Source: an uncultured Bacilli bacterium (GTDB lineage Bacteria; Bacillota_I; Bacilli_A; RF39; UBA660). Taken from it: a stretch of DNA of 37,323 nucleotides. Location: positions 1-37,323 of the forward strand of contig CANPXJ010000005.1 of NCBI GenBank assembly GCA_947585915.1. Direction: 5' to 3'. Shown in pieces: positions 120-34,887 of this stretch. Position 1 is the stretch's first letter; every line of letters starts with the position of its first letter. Below the pieces are notes generated by a model. That model saw only the letters and a program-made list of their open reading frames with translations. It searched no databases and was not told where the DNA came from. The translations under genes and the position numbers were made by a program.

Positions 120-395
120 ATGCCTCGTACTTATTCTAATGATTTTAAATCTATGCTTGTTAATCTTATTGTTAACGAAAAGCATTCTACTATTGCTACT
201 GCTCATCAATTTGAAGTCCCTCTTAAAACTTTAGAAAAGTGGATTACGGCTTATAATAAAGATCATAATGTCTTTGATTCCAATTATCTTTCTCCTTCTA
301 GACAAATTGAAATCTTAAAAAAGCAAGTTGCTAAATTACAACGGGATAATGACATTTTAAAAAAAACTATTTCTTTATTAGCAAAAAAGGAATAA
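120..395 (+). CDS. IS3-family transposase OrfA (HTH, leucine-zipper-like C-terminus)
   Basis: MPRTYSNDFKSMLVNLIVNEKHSTIATAHQFEVPLKTLEKWI... resembles InsE/HTH_Tnp_1; ends ...KKTISLLAKKE. Confidence 0.88.
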   Translation: MPRTYSNDFKSMLVNLIVNEKHSTIATAHQFEVPLKTLEKWITAYNKDHNVFDSNYLSPSRQIEILKKQVAKLQRDNDILKKTISLLAKKE

Positions 396-1276
396 ATTTA
401 TTTGAAAGTATTAAGGTTCTCAATAATGATTTCCCTTTAATTTCTATTTGTAATGCTTTAGGGGTTAATAAATCTTCTTACCTTTATTGGTTGAATTTTT
501 CTTCTCTTAAAGATTCTTCTTCCTTTTTTAATCTTATTATTAAAATTTATTCCCAAAGTAATGGTATTTATGGTTCTCCTAAAATTACTTCTATCTTAAA
601 TAACCATTATAATATTTCTTGCTCTGTTTCTAAAGTTTCTAGAGCTATGGCCTTATTAGGTATTAAATCCATTGTTTCTTCCTCTTTTCCTAAAAAAATT
701 TCTAGAATTACCAGTAAAGAAAAATCTTTAATTGTTAATTTAATTAAAGATTTAGATATTTCTCACATTAACCAAGTTTGGACTACTGATATTACTTATA
801 TTAAAACTTCTTTTGATGGCACTTTTTATCTTATTTCTTTTATTGATTATTTTTCTAAGAAAGTTGTTGCTTGGGGTCTTTTTGAAAATCAAAAAACCGA
901 TAAAATTATTTCTGTTTTAAATAAAGCCATCATTAAAAGAAATCCTAATCCTGGTTTAATTATTCATTCTGATAAAGGTGCTCAATTTCGATCTAAAGAA
1001 TATAGAAAATTTTTAAGTAAACATAATTTTGTTTTTAGCTATACTTCTTTAAATCACTCTTGTGATGAAAATGCTGCTCAAGAATCTTTTCATTCTTTAT
1101 TAAAAAAAGAATGGTTATATCAAAAAAAATTATATACTTTTCATGATGCATACAGGGAAATTTTCAACTATATAGATGGGTTTTATAATCCGATTAGAAT
1201 TCATTCTTCTTTAGGGTATGTTTCCCCCATTGTCTTTGAAAATAACTTTTTTAATTCTAATACCCCCTCTAATTAG
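383..1276 (+). CDS. IS3-family transposase OrfB (DDE integrase core), probably made as an OrfAB fusion by -1 frameshifting; ORF track begins at TTG 491
   Basis: WTTDITYIKT, IHSDKGAQFRS, ENAAQESFHSLLKKE = D-D-E integrase motifs; frame open upstream to the slippery A AAA AAG at 383-389. Confidence 0.88.
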   Translation, partial: KKGINLFESIKVLNNDFPLISICNALGVNKSSYLYWLNFSSLKDSSSFFNLIIKIYSQSNGIYGSPKITSILNNHYNISCSVSKVSRAMALLGIKSIVSSSFPKKISRITSKEKSLIVNLIKDLDISHINQVWTTDITYIKTSFDGTFYLISFIDYFSKKVVAWGLFENQKTDKIISVLNKAIIKRNPNPGLIIHSDKGAQFRSKEYRKFLSKHNFVFSYTSLNHSCDENAAQESFHSLLKKEWLYQKKLYTFHDAYREIFNYIDGFYNPIRIHSSLGYVSPIVFENNFFNSNTPSN

Positions 1277-5936: not shown

Positions 5937-5968
5937 GAAAAAAAGATATTTTATCGTGCAAAATATCT
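5937..5968 (-). terminator. intrinsic terminator of the four-gene membrane-protein cluster
   Basis: minus strand AGATATTTT-gcacgat-AAAATATCT followed by TTTTTTT; 9-bp perfect stem. Confidence 0.75.
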
Positions 5969-6593
5969 AACTATTAATTTTTAATAAATATTCATTCTTA
6001 TTAATATTTTCTTCGATATAATCTAGTTGATTATTAATTTTGTTGATATCTTCTTCTGTTGCCACCTTATATCTTATTAATGTATGTAATTTTTCTTGTA
6101 ACAACAATTTTTTTAGTTGTTGTTTTTTTATTAATCTTTCATAAAATGAAAGCTCTAAGGCAACGTTGTATTCTTTAGCCAAAGGCATTGTTTCAGGTTG
6201 ATAATTATAAAAACTTAATTCCTCATTTTCTCTTTGGGCATAATATGTTTCTATTTTCTCTCTAATATCTTCTTGAGTTGAATCTGGTTCACTATTAACT
6301 TTCTTTAGTTTGGAAATATTATTAACAAATCCTTGTGCACAGGCATATATTGCACCTGTTGTTAAAGCTCCAAAAAGAGGTAAAGTTAAATATCCATTTT
6401 TTCCAAAAGCCGAATCTAAATTGGAAATAAGACCAGGGCAAGTTGTTTTTAGATAATGGTTAAAAATTCCTAAACAAGCTGCTCCCAAAAGAAAAGATGT
6501 TGCAATTTTGGTTTTAGTTACTCTCTTTCTTTGAATTTTATATTTTCTATTTTTAATAAGTTTTCTAAAAGCTTTTGTTTTTTCTAATCTCAT
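5967..6593 (-). CDS. two-TM coiled-coil protein, paralog 4 of a tandem family
   Basis: FRKLIKNRKYKIQRKRVTKTKIA..TM..TM..coiled coil ...YKVATEEDINKINNQLDYIEENI. Confidence 0.7.
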   Translation of the reverse strand: MRLEKTKAFRKLIKNRKYKIQRKRVTKTKIATSFLLGAACLGIFNHYLKTTCPGLISNLDSAFGKNGYLTLPLFGALTTGAIYACAQGFVNNISKLKKVNSEPDSTQEDIREKIETYYAQRENEELSFYNYQPETMPLAKEYNVALELSFYERLIKKQQLKKLLLQEKLHTLIRYKVATEEDINKINNQLDYIEENINKNEYLLKINS

Positions 6594-6611
6594 ATTATCA
6601 TCTTCCTATAA

Positions 6612-7157
6612 TTATCCTCTGACTAATCTGCGTGTTTGTTCTTCAATTTCTAAATCAACTTCTGAAATTGACTGTTTTATATTTATTTTATCTTGATGAG
6701 TTGCAACTTTATAAAAAGCTAAATCTGCTAATTTTTCTTCTAACAATTTTCTCTTTATTTTTAATTTTCTTAAAAGATTTTTGCGATTTTCTTCTAAAAC
6801 TTTCATTTTAGTGTCATAATAACTATCTATTTTTGCTTTAATTATATCGTCATATTCCTTTTCTTCTTTTATTGCTTGTTGTAAATCAGAGGTACTAACT
6901 AACCCACAAAAGGTTGTAGATATTAAAAATCCAATTATACCGGCTAAAAATGTTGCTTTCGCATTATCAATATTAGTCTCCATAACCTTATTAGCAATAT
7001 TAAAAATAGTTAATTGAACAACAGTTGCTCCTGATAGAGCACCTACTCCAGTTGTTATAATATCATAGGCAAATTCACATCTCTTTAACTTTTTTTCTCC
7101 TTTAACATCTTCTCTATCTTTTAACAAATTTCTAAATTCTTTATTGTCATATTTCAT
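6612..7157 (-). CDS. two-TM coiled-coil protein, paralog 3
   Basis: FRNLLKDREDVKGEKKLKRCEFA... LAFYKVATHQDKINIKQSISEVDLEIEEQ. Confidence 0.7.
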   Translation of the reverse strand: MKYDNKEFRNLLKDREDVKGEKKLKRCEFAYDIITTGVGALSGATVVQLTIFNIANKVMETNIDNAKATFLAGIIGFLISTTFCGLVSTSDLQQAIKEEKEYDDIIKAKIDSYYDTKMKVLEENRKNLLRKLKIKRKLLEEKLADLAFYKVATHQDKINIKQSISEVDLEIEEQTRRLVRG

Positions 7158-7705
7158 ATGTTCCCTCCACTTCTAATTAAGGCTCTTTGTTTTTTTATCT
7201 CCGCTTCAATCGATAATATTGAATTTTTTAATTCCTTTTTCTCTTTGTGTTTTAATGCATTATAACTAATTAAATCTTTTTGTTTATTTAGTAATATTTG
7301 TTTTTTTAACAGCAAGGTTTGTAAGTTGTCTTCATCTTTTATGTTCTCGATTCTTTTTTCATAATAATTTTCAACTTCTGATTTAATCCTATCATTATAA
7401 TATCTTTCTAATATTACAGCTCTTTTTATTTTAGAAATAAAATTCGATCCATATAAAGAACTAGATATTAAAAAACCAACTATACTAGCTAATGCTATAC
7501 TTTTCCAACATTCAGGATTAAAAGCAATTGGGCTGTTATTAATATTTTGAATGATCAAATCTATAAACCCTACTATTACACCCCCTAATGCTCCTATATA
7601 AAGAGAGTCTAGTCCAACTTCTGTTTTTATAACCTTTCTTCTATTTTTATATTTATCTCTAGCTTCAAGTAAATCTTTAAATAAAATGTCATCTACATTA
7701 TTCAT
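7154..7705 (-). CDS. two-TM coiled-coil protein, paralog 2
   Basis: FKDLLEARDKYKNRRKVIKTEVG... LISYNALKHKEKKELKNSILSIEAEIKKQ. Confidence 0.7.
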   Translation of the reverse strand: MNNVDDILFKDLLEARDKYKNRRKVIKTEVGLDSLYIGALGGVIVGFIDLIIQNINNSPIAFNPECWKSIALASIVGFLISSSLYGSNFISKIKRAVILERYYNDRIKSEVENYYEKRIENIKDEDNLQTLLLKKQILLNKQKDLISYNALKHKEKKELKNSILSIEAEIKKQRALIRSGGNI

Positions 7706-7759
7706 ATTTTTTCTCCTCGTTTAGTTTTTTTTGTTTCAAAATATATTTTGCTTCTTCAT

Positions 7760-8215
7760 TTATGACTTTAATTTTTTCTCCAGCATAATATTGTCCTTCT
7801 CAGTTTTAACTTTATATTTATTATAAAGTTTTAATTTTTCTTGTAAATAATCTATTCGATTTTCGACATTGACTGCTTTAGAATATCTTTTATCACATAT
7901 ATTGTCAATTTCATTTCTAATTGCCTTGTTTAAATCTTCTTCTTTTTCTATAATAGACTTTAAATTATTCACTCTTTCTTTAATATATAAAGTGACGTTA
8001 ATCATAGCAATTAACCCTGCTAATACACTTACTCCTATCAAATATGGCTTATTATAATTTATAATTTGTTTTGCTGCAAAAATATAAAGCCCAGAAATTC
8101 CTATCCACAAAGTGGGATAAGATGCCATTTTAACTTTTTCTATTCTTTTTCTTTTAGTTTCATAATCTCTTCTTTTTATTAAATCTTCTAAATATTCATC
8201 ACTATTTAGTTGCAC
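7760..8215 (-). CDS. two-TM coiled-coil protein, paralog 1
   Basis: YLEDLIKRRDYETKRKRIEKVKMA... LYNKYKVKTEKDNIMLEKKL. Confidence 0.7.
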   Translation of the reverse strand: MQLNSDEYLEDLIKRRDYETKRKRIEKVKMASYPTLWIGISGLYIFAAKQIINYNKPYLIGVSVLAGLIAMINVTLYIKERVNNLKSIIEKEEDLNKAIRNEIDNICDKRYSKAVNVENRIDYLQEKLKLYNKYKVKTEKDNIMLEKKLKS

Positions 8216-26987: not shown

Positions 26988-27072
26988 GGATGCATCAAGG
27001 CTTTGGCCAAGATGCCTTTCCACTCTGTGAAAAGCCATCTAGTGACCCCCTGTGGTCATTAGATGCTTTTTT
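26988..27072 (+). ncRNA. candidate type I antitoxin sRNA (RNA II-like), about 85 nt
   Basis: promoter immediately upstream; ends in GCCATCTAGTGACC-ccctgt-GGTCATTAGATGC hairpin + T6; repeats complementary to toxin 5'UTR. Confidence 0.6.
27034..27072. terminator. bidirectional terminator shared by convergent toxin mRNA and antisense sRNA
   Basis: about 13-bp stem with one GU pair and one bulge; T6 on + strand, T4 on - strand. Confidence 0.75.
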
Positions 27073-27115
27073 GATGTAGTTATCTAGGGTGTTAGAGTGT
27101 ATCAACCAAGAAGTA

Positions 27116-27187
27116 TTATATTAAAACTAAAATAAGAGCTACAAACAAAAAAATAATGATTATCTGATAAAACACTTTATCACACAT
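27116..27187 (-). CDS. candidate type I toxin: 23-aa hydrophobic peptide MCDKVFYQIIIIFLFVALILVLI (not in ORF track)
   Basis: ATG at 27187, TAA at 27116-27118, strong SD aaggaaaggtg upstream, single TM peptide, convergent sRNA. Confidence 0.6.
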   Translation of the reverse strand: MCDKVFYQIIIIFLFVALILVLI

Positions 27188-27252
27188 AACTATCACCTTT
27201 CCTTTTTAAGGGAAAGACACCTTGACCAACAGTACCTTGGTGCATCAAAGTT

Positions 27253-27387: not shown

Positions 27388-28458
27388 TTATTTTAAAATT
27401 TTTAAAATATTACAATTACTATAAGATAAATAACCTTTATAACTAGCTTTAACTCTAACTAATTTTTCTTGATTATAAATTTTTAAATTTTTTATTTTCC
27501 TTTTAATTCTTCTTTTTGTCTGATTATTTATTCTAATTATTAATTTCTTATTTTTTAACTTAAATCTATAACCTAAAAATCCGACTCCTTTATTCAAATT
27601 ATAAATATTAGTTTTTTTATTTACTTCTAATTTTTCTTTTATTTTTCTTAAACATTCTTCTAAATATTTTTTATCATCGTGAAAAATAATAAAGTCATCC
27701 ATATATCTTATATAATATTTTAATTTTAAGTTTTCTTTAATATAATGATCCACTTCATTTAAATAATATATAGCAAGTATTTGACTACTTAAATTGCCTA
27801 TCGGTAATCCTTTATTATCTTGATATATAGGTAATTCCTTGATTTGCTTTTGTTCTTCCTTGTTTTTTATTTTTTTTATTACCCTATTTTTTTCTTTAAC
27901 TATTTCTTCATTAACATATTTTTCATTACTACTTTTTATTATATTAATCACTAATTTATATAAATTTTCATCTTTTATTAATTTTCTTAATTTATTTAAT
28001 AAAATAGTATGGTCAATATTAAAAAAGTATTTTTTAATATCTATTTTTAATACATAGATTTCTTCATTATTTAATTTTATTTTATTAATATATTTTTTAG
28101 CTAAATATAATCCATATGAGGTCCCTTTGTTTTTTCTTGTTGCTACATTAGAATTAATAAGTAATGGTTCTATTAACGGAATTAAAACGTAATTTGAAAC
28201 TAAATGGTTAACTATTTTATCATTTAATTTTTCGCTCATTATAATTCGATATTTTGGTTCTTTAATTATGAATATATTATATTTACCATGCTTATATTTG
28301 TTAGATTTTAAAATATTTAATATATTTAAAAGATTACTCCCTTTAAAACACTCAAATTTGCATATCTTATTCCTGTTTTTAGTCTTTACTCTAATATGTT
28401 CATATTCTTTAATTATTTTATCAAAATCAACTATATCATTATAAACTATCTTTTTCAT
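27388..28458 (-). CDS. DGR-type reverse transcriptase
   Basis: KGTSYGLYLAKKYI, KIDIKKYFFNIDH, GLPIGNLSSQILAIYYLNEVDHYIKE, YYIRYMDDFIIF (YMDD), GVGFLGYRFK. Confidence 0.93.
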   Translation of the reverse strand: MKKIVYNDIVDFDKIIKEYEHIRVKTKNRNKICKFECFKGSNLLNILNILKSNKYKHGKYNIFIIKEPKYRIIMSEKLNDKIVNHLVSNYVLIPLIEPLLINSNVATRKNKGTSYGLYLAKKYINKIKLNNEEIYVLKIDIKKYFFNIDHTILLNKLRKLIKDENLYKLVINIIKSSNEKYVNEEIVKEKNRVIKKIKNKEEQKQIKELPIYQDNKGLPIGNLSSQILAIYYLNEVDHYIKENLKLKYYIRYMDDFIIFHDDKKYLEECLRKIKEKLEVNKKTNIYNLNKGVGFLGYRFKLKNKKLIIRINNQTKRRIKRKIKNLKIYNQEKLVRVKASYKGYLSYSNCNILKILK

Positions 28459-28792
28459 TTTTTAATAACCCATAACTTATTTTTCTTATTTCTAATATAT
28501 AATTGGTTATGCTTTCATACTTTTTCTTTTTTATATACCCTCTATTATATATTTCTAAAAGAAAAAAATCACACATAGACAATTTTATTAAAATATTTTT
28601 TATGTTGGTTTTTCTAATTTTTAAATTGTCACTATTAATCATATAGCTATAAGTTAGTTCTATAATAGCTAACATATTTTCTTCAACATGAGTTTTTAAT
28701 ACTATTTCTTTTCTAGGAATATTTATAAGCATTTTGTTTATATACCAATATGTTTTTTGAACACTTGCTAACAACTTGAAATTATTATTCAT
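28439..28792 (-). CDS. avd: Avd-like DGR accessory protein (four-helix bundle)
   Basis: 117 aa helical, adjacent to and overlapping the RT start, ...YSYMINSDNLKIRKTNIKNILIKLSMCDFFLLEIYNRGYIKKKKYESI. Confidence 0.75.
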   Translation of the reverse strand: MNNNFKLLASVQKTYWYINKMLINIPRKEIVLKTHVEENMLAIIELTYSYMINSDNLKIRKTNIKNILIKLSMCDFFLLEIYNRGYIKKKKYESITNYILEIRKISYGLLKNEKDSL

Positions 28793-28956
28793 TTTATCAT
28801 TCTTTCCTTAAAAAAAGTAATGAGTTTATCAGGTTCATTACTTTTGTAATACAGCAAGTAGATATCATCTACTTTTTTATTTTTTAGCAAAGATAACGTC
28901 TGTATTATGTTTTTTGAATTACTTTGAATAATCCAAGGAATAAATCTTGTTTCCAA
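28789..28956 (-). CDS. candidate small ORF (55 aa from TTG) translationally coupled to avd, or remnant of a longer gene
   Basis: LETRFIPWIIQSNSKNIIQTLSLLKNKKVDDIYLLYYKSNEPDKLITFFKERMIK*; its TGA overlaps the avd ATG as ATGA; no ATG start so absent from ORF track. Confidence 0.4.
   Translation of the reverse strand: METRFIPWIIQSNSKNIIQTLSLLKNKKVDDIYLLYYKSNEPDKLITFFKERMIK
28810..28845 (-). terminator. terminator/attenuator-like hairpin between TR and avd
   Basis: minus strand AAAAGTAATGA-acctgataaac-TCATTACTTTT with T7 tract; 11-bp perfect stem. Confidence 0.55.
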
Positions 28957-29097
28957 TCTAAATTATATTTTGATATTATATCTAGATTTCCAATTGATTA
29001 AATAACAATTGGCTACTTCCTCTGTTTATTAGATACTATCCAATAAAGCTCGGTATAGTAATATAAATAAATTATATTAAAATATATTAGTAGGAAT

Positions 29098-29199
29098 CTG
29101 GCACGACGGCGTTTGTATTGTTAGTATTGTTGTTGTTGATGTTGCCATTGTTGCCTTCGAATACATTAGCATTATTATTAGAATTGTTAGGCGAAAGGC
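29098..29199 (-). repeat. DGR template repeat (TR)
   Basis: minus strand ctttcgcctaacaattctaataataatgctaatgtattcgaaggcaacaatggcaac...aacgccgtcgtgccag; AAY-rich, matches VR except at adenines and three codon-sized indels. Confidence 0.93.
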
Positions 29200-29288
29200 C
29201 ACAACGCGGAAAAAAGTCAATTAATAGATTTATCCCTATATAAACCTCAGTTTATACCTTATTAATCATTTAATATATTTTAATTCGT

Positions 29289-29316
29289 CCAAACTTTTGA
29301 CGGAGCAAAAGTTTGG
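29289..29316. repeat. perfect inverted repeat (hairpin) just downstream of the VR-protein stop codon
   Basis: CCAAACTTTTG-acggag-CAAAAGTTTGG, 11 bp (12 with flanking t-a). Confidence 0.75.
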
Positions 29317-29328
29317 AAACGCTTGCTC

Positions 29329-30849
29329 TTAGTCTACTTGAAATGGACTTTGTTCACTCCCATCTCCAGTGGTGATTAGTGCACTAGTGGATAGATTGAT
29401 AACTGGCACGACGGCGCCCGTACCGCCAGTACCGTAGTCGGTGCCGCCACTGTAGCCATAGCTGCCTTCGAAAACACGAGCAGTATTACCAGAAGAACTG
29501 TAAGGCGAAAGGCTCCACCACCAATAATTATGATAAATATAGTTTGTTTCATCTGCATACGGCTCGGACCTTGATAACCCTGCCATATTCATTTCATCTG
29601 CTGTTATTAATCCTATCTTCGTTTTATATATCCCTCCATAATCTCTTGGTGAACCATTTTGATTATTTGGCTCTGGACATTTTAAACTTGGTTCTTTTTT
29701 TGTTACTACTCGGTCATATGCTCCGTAAAATAAATAACCACTAGTTGTAGCTCCTTCGTTTCCACTTCCATATGAGGTATCATTGCAGAAATATCCTTGG
29801 GCTATTTGATCGTTTACACTATTTAAATTATTACTATACCATGTCTCTAGTGCTGTCTTTATATTACTATCTTGTCCTCCAAAGTTTTCATTTGAAAACT
29901 CACCACTTTTATATATTACCTCGCATGGATTATTTTTTGTACAACTATTTGTATTGTCATATGTGTATCCTGTATATTTTCCAGCATGAATCTCTTGATT
30001 TGCTACATAATCATTGAATTTTGAATTAGACTCGATTTTATCATTTAAAATAAGTCTTATTGTTCCATCTCCATTGATTCGTACTATTTTCCATTCCTTT
30101 CCTGCAAATTCTACGTTATTATTTAGTTCATTTCTATCTCCTCGAAAATAGTAACTTGTCCCTTGATCATCTTCGGCTTTATATATTCCACTTCCTGTGT
30201 TTGGAGTTACACCTTCATTTAAAGAAGCTATTGATATATCTGCTGGCTCTCCCTTTGCAAAGTCTGGTCTCTCTTCTTTTATTGTATTATGGGCGAGTAT
30301 TGTTCTTAAGTTTCCACTTGCATTATTTATTTGTACTATTCCACTGAATGTTTTTCCTTGATTATAGTTTTGGTTACTTCCTATCTCTTTAAAATGTATG
30401 GTTAATGTATAACTATGTTTCTCTTTACTTTTTATCCCTATATTCCCTAGTATTGTCTCTGATCCACTTTCTGGAGCTTGACTATACTCTTTTACTTCTT
30501 TATTATCTCTTTCTATTTTATATTCTAACTCTTCTTTTTTTTCATATGTATTTATTATTTCTATCATATCTAAATTATATATTGTATCTAATGTCCCTGT
30601 ATTTTCTACTGTAAAATTTATTGTATGTATTGCTCCTGGTAAGGCATTTTCTAGACTTGTTATTGTTGTTCCATCTAGTTTTAAGGACATTGTTCCTGAT
30701 TGTACTTTTATTTCTTTTGCTTCTTCATTTCCTTTTACTTTTAATGTGAAGTATGCATATGACACACTTATTGTTATTACTATTATTAATGTTATTATTG
30801 CTATTACTATTTTTTTATTCTCTTTTATATTTTTTATTTTATCCGACAT
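29329..30849 (-). CDS. DGR target: secreted/surface protein with SipW-type signal region and C-terminal C-type-lectin-like variable domain
   Basis: N-term KIVIAIITLIIVITISVSYAYFTLKVKGNEEAKEIKVQSGTMSLKLDG; C-term NYWWWSLSPYSSSGNTARVFEGSYGYSGGTDYGTGGTGAVVPVINLS contains the VR. Confidence 0.88.
   Translation of the reverse strand: MSDKIKNIKENKKIVIAIITLIIVITISVSYAYFTLKVKGNEEAKEIKVQSGTMSLKLDGTTITSLENALPGAIHTINFTVENTGTLDTIYNLDMIEIINTYEKKEELEYKIERDNKEVKEYSQAPESGSETILGNIGIKSKEKHSYTLTIHFKEIGSNQNYNQGKTFSGIVQINNASGNLRTILAHNTIKEERPDFAKGEPADISIASLNEGVTPNTGSGIYKAEDDQGTSYYFRGDRNELNNNVEFAGKEWKIVRINGDGTIRLILNDKIESNSKFNDYVANQEIHAGKYTGYTYDNTNSCTKNNPCEVIYKSGEFSNENFGGQDSNIKTALETWYSNNLNSVNDQIAQGYFCNDTSYGSGNEGATTSGYLFYGAYDRVVTKKEPSLKCPEPNNQNGSPRDYGGIYKTKIGLITADEMNMAGLSRSEPYADETNYIYHNYWWWSLSPYSSSGNTARVFEGSYGYSGGTDYGTGGTGAVVPVINLSTSALITTGDGSEQSPFQVD
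29403..29513 (-). repeat. DGR variable repeat (VR) in the 3' end of the target gene
   Basis: shares ctttcgcct, ttcgaaggc and gccgtcgtgccag constant blocks with the TR; substitutions at TR adenines. Confidence 0.93.
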
Positions 30850-30948: not shown

Positions 30949-32047
30949 TTAATGAAACTGTTGTAGCATAGCAACCATAAAATCTAAAATGTCTCCATCT
31001 AACACTTTATCGGCTTGACTAGTTTCAAAACCTGTTCTAGTATCTTTAACCATAGTATATGGTTCTAAAACATAACTTCTTATTTGACTACCAAAATCAA
31101 TATTAGTACTAACCCCTTTAATTTCATTTAATTTAGCTTCTTGTTTATTTAATTCTATTTGATATAATTTGCTTTTTAAGATATTCATAGCAATTTCTTT
31201 ATTTTTAATTTGGCTTCTTTCGTTTTGGCAAGTAACAACTGTTTTAGTTGGTAAATGCGTAATTCTTACAGCTGAATCAGTAGTATTTACCCCTTGTCCC
31301 CCTTTACCACTACTTCGATAAACATCAATTTTTAAATCTTTTTCATTAATTTCTACTTCAATATCTTTAGAAAACTCAGGAGTTATAGTTACAGAGGCAA
31401 ATGAAGTATGCCGCCTTGCTCCGGAATCAAATGGAGATATTCTAACTAAACGATGGACTCCACTTTCACCTTTAAAATATCCATAAGCATACTCACCTTT
31501 TATTAATATTGTTACGCTTTTTAAACCGGCTTCTTCCCCTTTTTGCATTTCAATAATTTCGTAATTATAATTGTTTTTTTCACAAAATCTAGTATACATT
31601 CTAAAAAGCATATCTGCCCAATCACAGCTCTCAGTTCCTCCAGCTCCGGGATGAATTTCTAAATAACAATTTAAGTCATCATATTTTCCTGATAATAAAA
31701 CACTTATCTCTAAATCATTAAGTTCCGTTTTTATTTCTTCAAGGCTTTTTATAATTTCTTCTTCTAAATCTTTATCTTCTTCTATTTCTAATAAAGTTAA
31801 AAGTTCGGCTATACTTTTTATTTTGGTGGAAACATCACTAGTTTTTAAAATTTCTTTTTTTAAATTATTTACTTTAGTTGTAATATCAGTTGCCTTGGTT
31901 GTATCATCCCAAAAGCCTTCTTCATTCATTTTATTTTCTAGTTCTTGTAATTTTTTCTTTTTGCTTTCTAAGTCAAAGAGACCTCCCGATATCTTCTTCT
32001 TTTTTTCTTAAATTTTCTAATTTTATTTTTAATTCTTTTATTTCCAT
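30949..32047 (-). CDS. prfB: peptide chain release factor 2 with programmed +1 frameshift
   Basis: zero frame ATG 32047 MEIKELKIKLENLRKKEEDIGRSL then CTT TGA C (TGA at 31975-31973) with upstream GGGAGGT; downstream frame ...HPGAGGTESCDWADML, SSGKGGQGVNTTDSAVRITH. Confidence 0.95.
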
Positions 32048-34008: not shown

Positions 34009-34887
34009 TTAATCTATCAAAAAACGAAAAACTTTTAAAGCATTTTCAACTTCTTTTTTCCAATCCTCCATATACATTGCAATATTTCTTTCCGCATTAT
34101 TTTCAGCTATATCAAGAAATAAGTTTACTAAATTGTTTAGATTTTTTATTTCTTGTTCATTTAAATAATTCTTAGCAATAGTAATATCTGATTTTAGTAT
34201 CTTACCATCAGGAGATTTTTCCCAATTAGTAAGACCCATATTTTTCTTAGTAGAATCTACTCTATGATAAACTATTTCAGCAGCAGTTTGTCCAGTTATA
34301 GCATAATGAAATTTATTTTGAATTGTTTTATAAAAGTCTATTGCTATTTCGCTATTTTCATCATAATCTATTGAACATTCTGCAAAGATATCCGTAACTT
34401 TTTGATAAAACATTCTTTCACTGGTACGAATTAATTTTATTCTTTCAAGTAATCTTTGAAAATATTCTTGGTCTCTCTTATTAGCTTTCATAAATCTTTC
34501 ATCATCTAAAGCAAATCCTTGAACCATATAATCCTTAATTATTTTATTTGCCCAAGTTCTAAATTTAATTGCTTTTTTTGAATTAACTCTAAAACCTATA
34601 GAAATAATCATATCTAAATTATAATATTTTGTTTTATAAGTTTGTTTGCCGTTGTTACCCATATGTTCCATTTTGGAACATGTGATATTTTCTTCAAGTT
34701 CACTATCATTATATATGTTATTTATATGTTTAGTAATTGCTGGTCTTTTAACACTAAAAAGTGTTGCTAAAGCTTCAGTATTTAACCAAACATCTTCATC
34801 TTTAAGTAATACTTCTACTTTAGCATTTCCTTCCTCATCATTATAAAATAAAATATTTTTTTCAGTTCCAATTAATTTATCTTTCAC
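34009..34887 (-). CDS. RhuM-family (virulence RhuM-like) protein
   Basis: EDVWLNTEALATLFSVKRPAITKHINNIYNDSEL; YNLDMIISIGFRVNSKKAIKFRTWANKIIKDYMVQGFALDDERF. Confidence 0.85.
   Translation of the reverse strand: MKDKLIGTEKNILFYNDEEGNAKVEVLLKDEDVWLNTEALATLFSVKRPAITKHINNIYNDSELEENITCSKMEHMGNNGKQTYKTKYYNLDMIISIGFRVNSKKAIKFRTWANKIIKDYMVQGFALDDERFMKANKRDQEYFQRLLERIKLIRTSERMFYQKVTDIFAECSIDYDENSEIAIDFYKTIQNKFHYAITGQTAAEIVYHRVDSTKKNMGLTNWEKSPDGKILKSDITIAKNYLNEQEIKNLNNLVNLFLDIAENNAERNIAMYMEDWKKEVENALKVFRFLID

Follow-up and report, generated by a model that had tools for sequence, protein, structure and literature searches.

A chromosomal diversity-generating retroelement of an uncultured Bacilli bacterium and its apparent remote targets

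The cassette and its host genome

The window, by which we mean the whole 37,323-nucleotide stretch of DNA that was analyzed, carries a diversity-generating retroelement (DGR) on its minus strand (Table 1). Target, VR, TR, Avd and reverse transcriptase (RT) came out with the same order, strand and coordinates when the ORFs and the sequence were reread as in an earlier sequence-only reading. The RT and Avd ORFs are both open and intact, and 72 nt separate the 3′ end of the VR from the target stop codon. This is a genuine DGR, chromosomal and of a known kind of system. The host genome is a metagenome-assembled genome (MAG) of 93 contigs and 1.39 Mb, 92% complete, and the nearest named records, uncultured Bacilli MAGs called Lapin, agree with the assignment to Bacilli made earlier. 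To judge by the names of these records, the source appears to be rabbit gut. A phage or plasmid origin of the cassette was considered and rejected, as the target had no match in phages and the DNA none in plasmids. No paper on DGRs in this Bacilli group was found in the literature covered, which was partial and included few subscription journals.

Table 1. Features of the retroelement cassette and of its template RNA region, by position in the window
Feature	Position	Strand	Remarks
Target (variable protein) gene	30849-29329	minus	ORF, 506 aa; VR inside, near 3′ end
Hairpin tccaaacttttg-CTCCGT-caaaagtttgga	29288..29317	minus	Just 3′ of target stop; loop conserved, stem covaries in genus
VR	29403..29513	minus	111 nt
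Small hairpin GTATAAAC/GTTTATAT	29238..29257	minus	5′ end of template RNA region; conserved, little variation
Closing-helix 5′ arm GGGATAAATCT	29226..29236	minus	Pairs across TR with AGATTTATTCC
TR	29098..29199	minus	102 nt
CTACT, 3′ TR junction (IMH*-like position)	29089..29093	minus	Pairs with AGTAG at 29017-29013; conserved, no covariation
Structured spacer downstream of TR	28937..29098	minus	Part modelled as R1
Closing-helix 3′ arm AGATTTATTCC	28937..28947	minus	Pairs with GGGATAAATCT
Avd gene	28439..28792	minus	ORF, 117 aa, four-helix bundle
DGR reverse transcriptase gene	27388..28458	minus	ORF, 356 aa; IGNLSSQ, YMDD

The RT matches RVT_1 (E 1e-17) and contains the IGNLSSQ and YMDD motifs that had been taken as typical of DGRs, a view with which both its tree position and its best solved-structure match agree. 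That match is 8ub7 (E 2e-28), whose entry title names a DGR ribonucleoprotein RT (BPP-1); the group II match was at 2e-8. A DGR-RT phylogeny had been proposed as a check. In a tree that included six each of known DGR RTs and group II RTs, with group II alone as the outgroup, the DGR-type rows, the window RT among them, split from the group II RTs at 100/100, and the window RT fell, with good support, in a clade whose members come from uncultured Bacilli and Erysipelotrichaceae. A group II intron RT or maturase was rejected on this placement and on a score of 91 bits for NCBIfam TIGR04416, against a cut-off of 300. A defense-associated RT was rejected as well (Drt3a 60 of 200 bits, Drt2 36 of 390, both under the cut-off); PADLOC hits were generic.

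For Avd, the profile search that had been suggested did give matches (bAvd, E 3e-6; PHROG Avd, E 4e-9), but the scores lie under curated cut-offs, and thus it is the fold match that carries the assignment: the model (pLDDT 92) is a four-helix bundle with 8ub7_B and 4dwl as top matches, BPP-1 Avd chains among them.

The target begins with a SipW/camelysin-type signal and a beta domain (PF12389, E 5e-8; TIGR04090, E 5e-4, is below the cut-off), and a SipW-like signal peptidase is encoded elsewhere in the genome (TIGR02228, over the cut-off). Its C-terminal domain, which bears the VR, is DUF6273-like; DUF6273 was matched in five of eight aligned relatives and not in the window target itself. Others have modelled VR-carrying DUF6273 as a C-type lectin fold (PMC10743442). 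The fold model of our target was too poor for a fold search, which was rejected (mean pLDDT 52, structural matches uninformative). No conflict-system domains were seen in this protein. Taken together, the signal, the peptidase and the relatives make it likely that the target is a surface ligand-binding protein, as had been proposed, although its own fold model is poor.

When the window TR and VR were aligned by codons, with codon gaps allowed and equal mismatch costs, 24 of 40 adenines had changed, compared to 1 of 59 other bases (Fisher p = 2.1e-11). The adenine specificity noted before is thus upheld, as is the earlier count of about 23 substitutions; the statement that all of them fall at adenines is not, given a single change of a T in ATC that depends on gap placement. 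The codon-sized indels reported earlier reflect a real length difference, the VR exceeding the TR by 9 nt, or three codons (TCT, AGT and GGC). Its non-A change and added codons therefore mean that the window VR is not a simple copy of exactly the present TR. The TR holds 16 AAY codons, none convertible to a stop by changes at A, and its codons allow about 2e21 protein versions, all stop-free. After CCA, VRs read on as GTTATCAATC or near variants (V-I-N-L) and all TRs as GATTCCTACT; judged on sequence, the IMH in the VR is distinct from the IMH* in the TR.

Nine length differences were seen among the well-matched VRs, all of them whole-codon gains relative to the TR and none shorter. Inserted codons were NNY, as expected from AAY, in eight of nine cases. 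Either later shrinkage of the TR or slippage on AAY runs would explain such gains. Slippage of the RT on AAC/AAT runs during copying is a plausible account, although we lean slightly away from it. AAC repeats are cited in a published discussion as sites of slippage by multiples of three (PMC12875486), and the NNY codons would fit such slippage, but TR length itself varies in whole-codon steps between loci and species (96, 99, 102 and 105 nt from TCGCC to CCA). Moreover, a single TR that was older and longer would account for the equal length of the second halves of the window VR and that of contig C57, and all nine differences are gains, though they are not independent.

Template RNA and its relatives

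Nine loci share a common fold, obtained with the TR removed before folding. In alignment A1, 97.8% of cells were paired and 13 pairs had changed on both sides, the structure having been derived from the same nine loci that gave these counts; sliding the partner by 1 to 3 columns lowered pairing to 32-46%. Most of the covariation is held by the CTCCGT hairpin 3′ of the adjacent target (both-side changes in 8 of 12 pairs), which is unlike the BPP-1 type in loop and distance: here a 6-nt loop lies about 86 nt after the VR, whereas the BPP-1 hairpin has a 4-nt GRNA loop at 4-34 bp (PMC3240598). We discarded this hairpin as a mark of every VR, as none of its type was found after the remote VRs in the host genome, and also as an intrinsic terminator, since it has no T run and was not called by the scan. 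The closing helix was paired in 100% of cells in the nine loci, with two pairs changed on both sides in addition to single-side changes; these double changes are one state common to three loci of a sister species, G003, so that support is good but events are few. Rfam gave no match at the locus.

The spacer of BPP-1 folds and recruits RT-Avd, and cDNA is primed by an internal adenine at IMH* (PMC12875486). The CTACT/AGTAG helix of the window would place IMH* next to the spacer. From the nine related template genes comes an RNA fold that has covariation behind it and belongs to a DGR distant from BPP-1; it offers a point of comparison for how template RNAs are closed and primed.

The target-TR-Avd-RT layout was found again in relatives, in which the spacer motif and the R1 RNA model served to locate TRs (a loose regular-expression search gave mostly noise). 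The R1 spacer model also matched in seven other genera of the family, always beside an Avd gene and, except at locus L194, with an adjoining RT match too. By eye, the gene just before Avd at seven sister-genus loci (L077, L078, L080-L083 and L086) encodes a MutS N-terminal-like (mismatch-recognition-like) product. At an Erysipelotrichaceae DGR locus (L090:3887-4960), one protein, also judged by eye, combines a type IV pilin-like N-terminus with a C-terminus that ends in VVRPVI, as in DGR targets.

The arrangement in G003 is different. Its sole RT/Avd locus, on its contig C16, has no TR, and its three template genes, on its C8, C11 and C17, each adjoin a target, with neither Avd nor RT in the stretch read around each; one of them lies 503 nt from a contig end, its surroundings being partly unseen. 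On C11, the VR differs from the neighboring TR at 14 of 37 adenines and 0 of 62 other bases. One can envision that the template RNA of this lineage of Bacilli forms a gene module of its own that disperses, such that several TR genes and a large target family share one Avd-RT in a near-minimal genome, and that repertoires arise through duplicated target-plus-template units diversified in trans. We regard the chances of this being right as even.

Remote variable regions

The story of this system is mainly genome-wide and extends beyond the adjacent target, which the sequence-only reading missed. The host genome has one RT of this kind and 34 places that match the C-terminal part of the target, 19 of which were aligned with the TR. 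Eight VRs show no more than 5 non-A changes per 59: C16 and C27 with 0, C57 and the window with 1, C37 and C78 with 3, and C17 and C10 with 5. The C16 and C27 VRs, of the same length as the TR and without gaps, each differ from it at 23 of 40 adenines and 0 of 59 other bases (p = 4.6e-12). These VRs lie on other contigs, and such a pattern implies diversification in trans. Outside the VR, the C16 and window genes are 97.6% identical, and within it 75.8%; thus the VR changed after duplication. Mis-binned contigs are possible in a MAG of 93 contigs, but for C16 this is made less likely by a gene so nearly identical to that of the window.

Under a looser rule of 50% identity, as used for cyanobacteria (PMC7517822), about 17 VRs qualify; since selection that preserves framework codons could likewise produce a bias toward adenines in diverged copies, we claim only the strict eight. 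It appears, from sequence comparison, that one enzyme rewrote the 3′ ends of at least eight, and perhaps about twenty, surface-type proteins across the chromosome.

We therefore consider it very probable that a chromosomal DGR with one RT and one intact TR serves both the adjacent target and, in trans, several paralogous exported proteins. Two observations count against it: the departures of the window VR from a simple copy, and the lack of a BPP-1-type hairpin behind the remote VRs. The cassette, the adenine-specific differences, the remote VRs and the conserved RNA fold can be read directly from the DNA. We imagine that the TR is transcribed as part of an RNA that folds, with its flanks paired across the TR, and that the RT, with Avd, would copy the TR with errors at adenines. 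The cDNA would then replace the VR at the 3′ end of target genes that carry the TR constant blocks and an IMH-like CCAGTTATCAATC end, so that the single RT and single intact TR may act on the adjacent target and on remote paralogous exported proteins alike.

The cassette might instead be intact and now idle, its VRs being drifting relics of past retrohoming. This would fit the many host-genome VRs with 8-30 non-A changes, a decayed second template copy that adjoins a target on C17, and the finding that four of the nine genus members have a broken RT or none at all but retain targets. Target-like places number 34, 38, 33, 21 and 13 in the genomes with an intact RT and 7, 9, 13 and 14 in those without (Mann-Whitney p = 0.049, nine genomes), an association that is a hint, given that completeness differs among them. 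We nonetheless think an idle cassette unlikely, with RT and Avd both open and drift not expected to leave VRs such as those of C16 and C27, without a single non-A change, for long. Of the earlier view that the system is active or recently active, the recent activity is supported by these two VRs, and the system may still be active.

It is also conceivable that the VR differences come from gene conversion or selection among paralogues, with no reverse transcription. The targets do form a large paralogous family with common framework codons, but silent non-A sites in the VRs are unchanged where adenines have changed, and the TR copy retained next to Avd and RT is non-coding. We give this explanation almost no weight, in favor of a DGR that would act by retrohoming.

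Related systems and other features of the window

The likeness to the DGR of Bordetella phage BPP-1 includes a target with a 3′ VR, a TR, Avd, an RT with YMDD and a folded spacer downstream of the TR (PMC12875486), the RTs being homologous and the Avd fold the same. In BPP-1, however, the TR lies between avd and RT, whereas here it is upstream of avd, and the window system is chromosomal with many remote targets. In this respect it resembles the DGR of Treponema denticola, in which one RT and one TR serve up to seven targets, most of them far from the core, and leftover targets persist where the core was lost (PMC4891356). The T. denticola targets are fewer and are lipoproteins, while ours are SipW-type, and the Treponema RTs lie far from the window RT in the tree.

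Remote targets, degenerate loci and trans diversification are shared with the DGRs of Thiohalocapsa PB-PSB1 and of cyanobacteria (PMC10907252, PMC7517822). In the 7.95 Mb of PB-PSB1 there are 15 targets and nine DGR loci, whereas the 1.39 Mb here contain about 34 paralogues and a single RT. Gut phage DGRs (tentaclins; nd12) likewise have DUF6273 bearing the VR (PMC10743442), and the RT of phage nd12 is one of the known DGR RTs that lie nearer to ours in the tree; tentaclins are phage genes with Ig domains, however, whereas the window target had no match in the phage collection. Other organisms thus offer precedents for remote targets, for degenerate copies and for action in trans (PMC4891356, PMC10907252, PMC3521204). 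The notable points are how many targets this small genome holds and the detached template genes of the sister species. If our reading is correct, a reduced 1.39-Mb gut genome devotes tens of genes to one hypervariable exported family with a single writing enzyme, and would be a strong bacterial example of an antibody-like repertoire.

Several other features of the window deserve mention. In prfB (31971-32020, minus), CTT TGA with an upstream GGGAGG suggests a programmed +1 frameshift, so that the gene start in the ORF list (31929) is too late. At 27036-27209 (minus), a very short hydrophobic ORF (MCDKVFYQIIIIFLFVALILVLI) adjoins a hairpin and is reminiscent of a type I toxin; Rfam gave no match for this region, and the terminator scan was positive on the opposite strand. 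Four adjoining small membrane-type proteins at 5967-8215 (minus) appear to be diverged tandem paralogues, the two that were tested having no match in Pfam. An IS3-type transposase pair (HTH_Tnp_1, rve) lies at 120-1276 (plus) and a RhuM-family protein (PF13310, E 2e-89) at 34009-34887 (minus).
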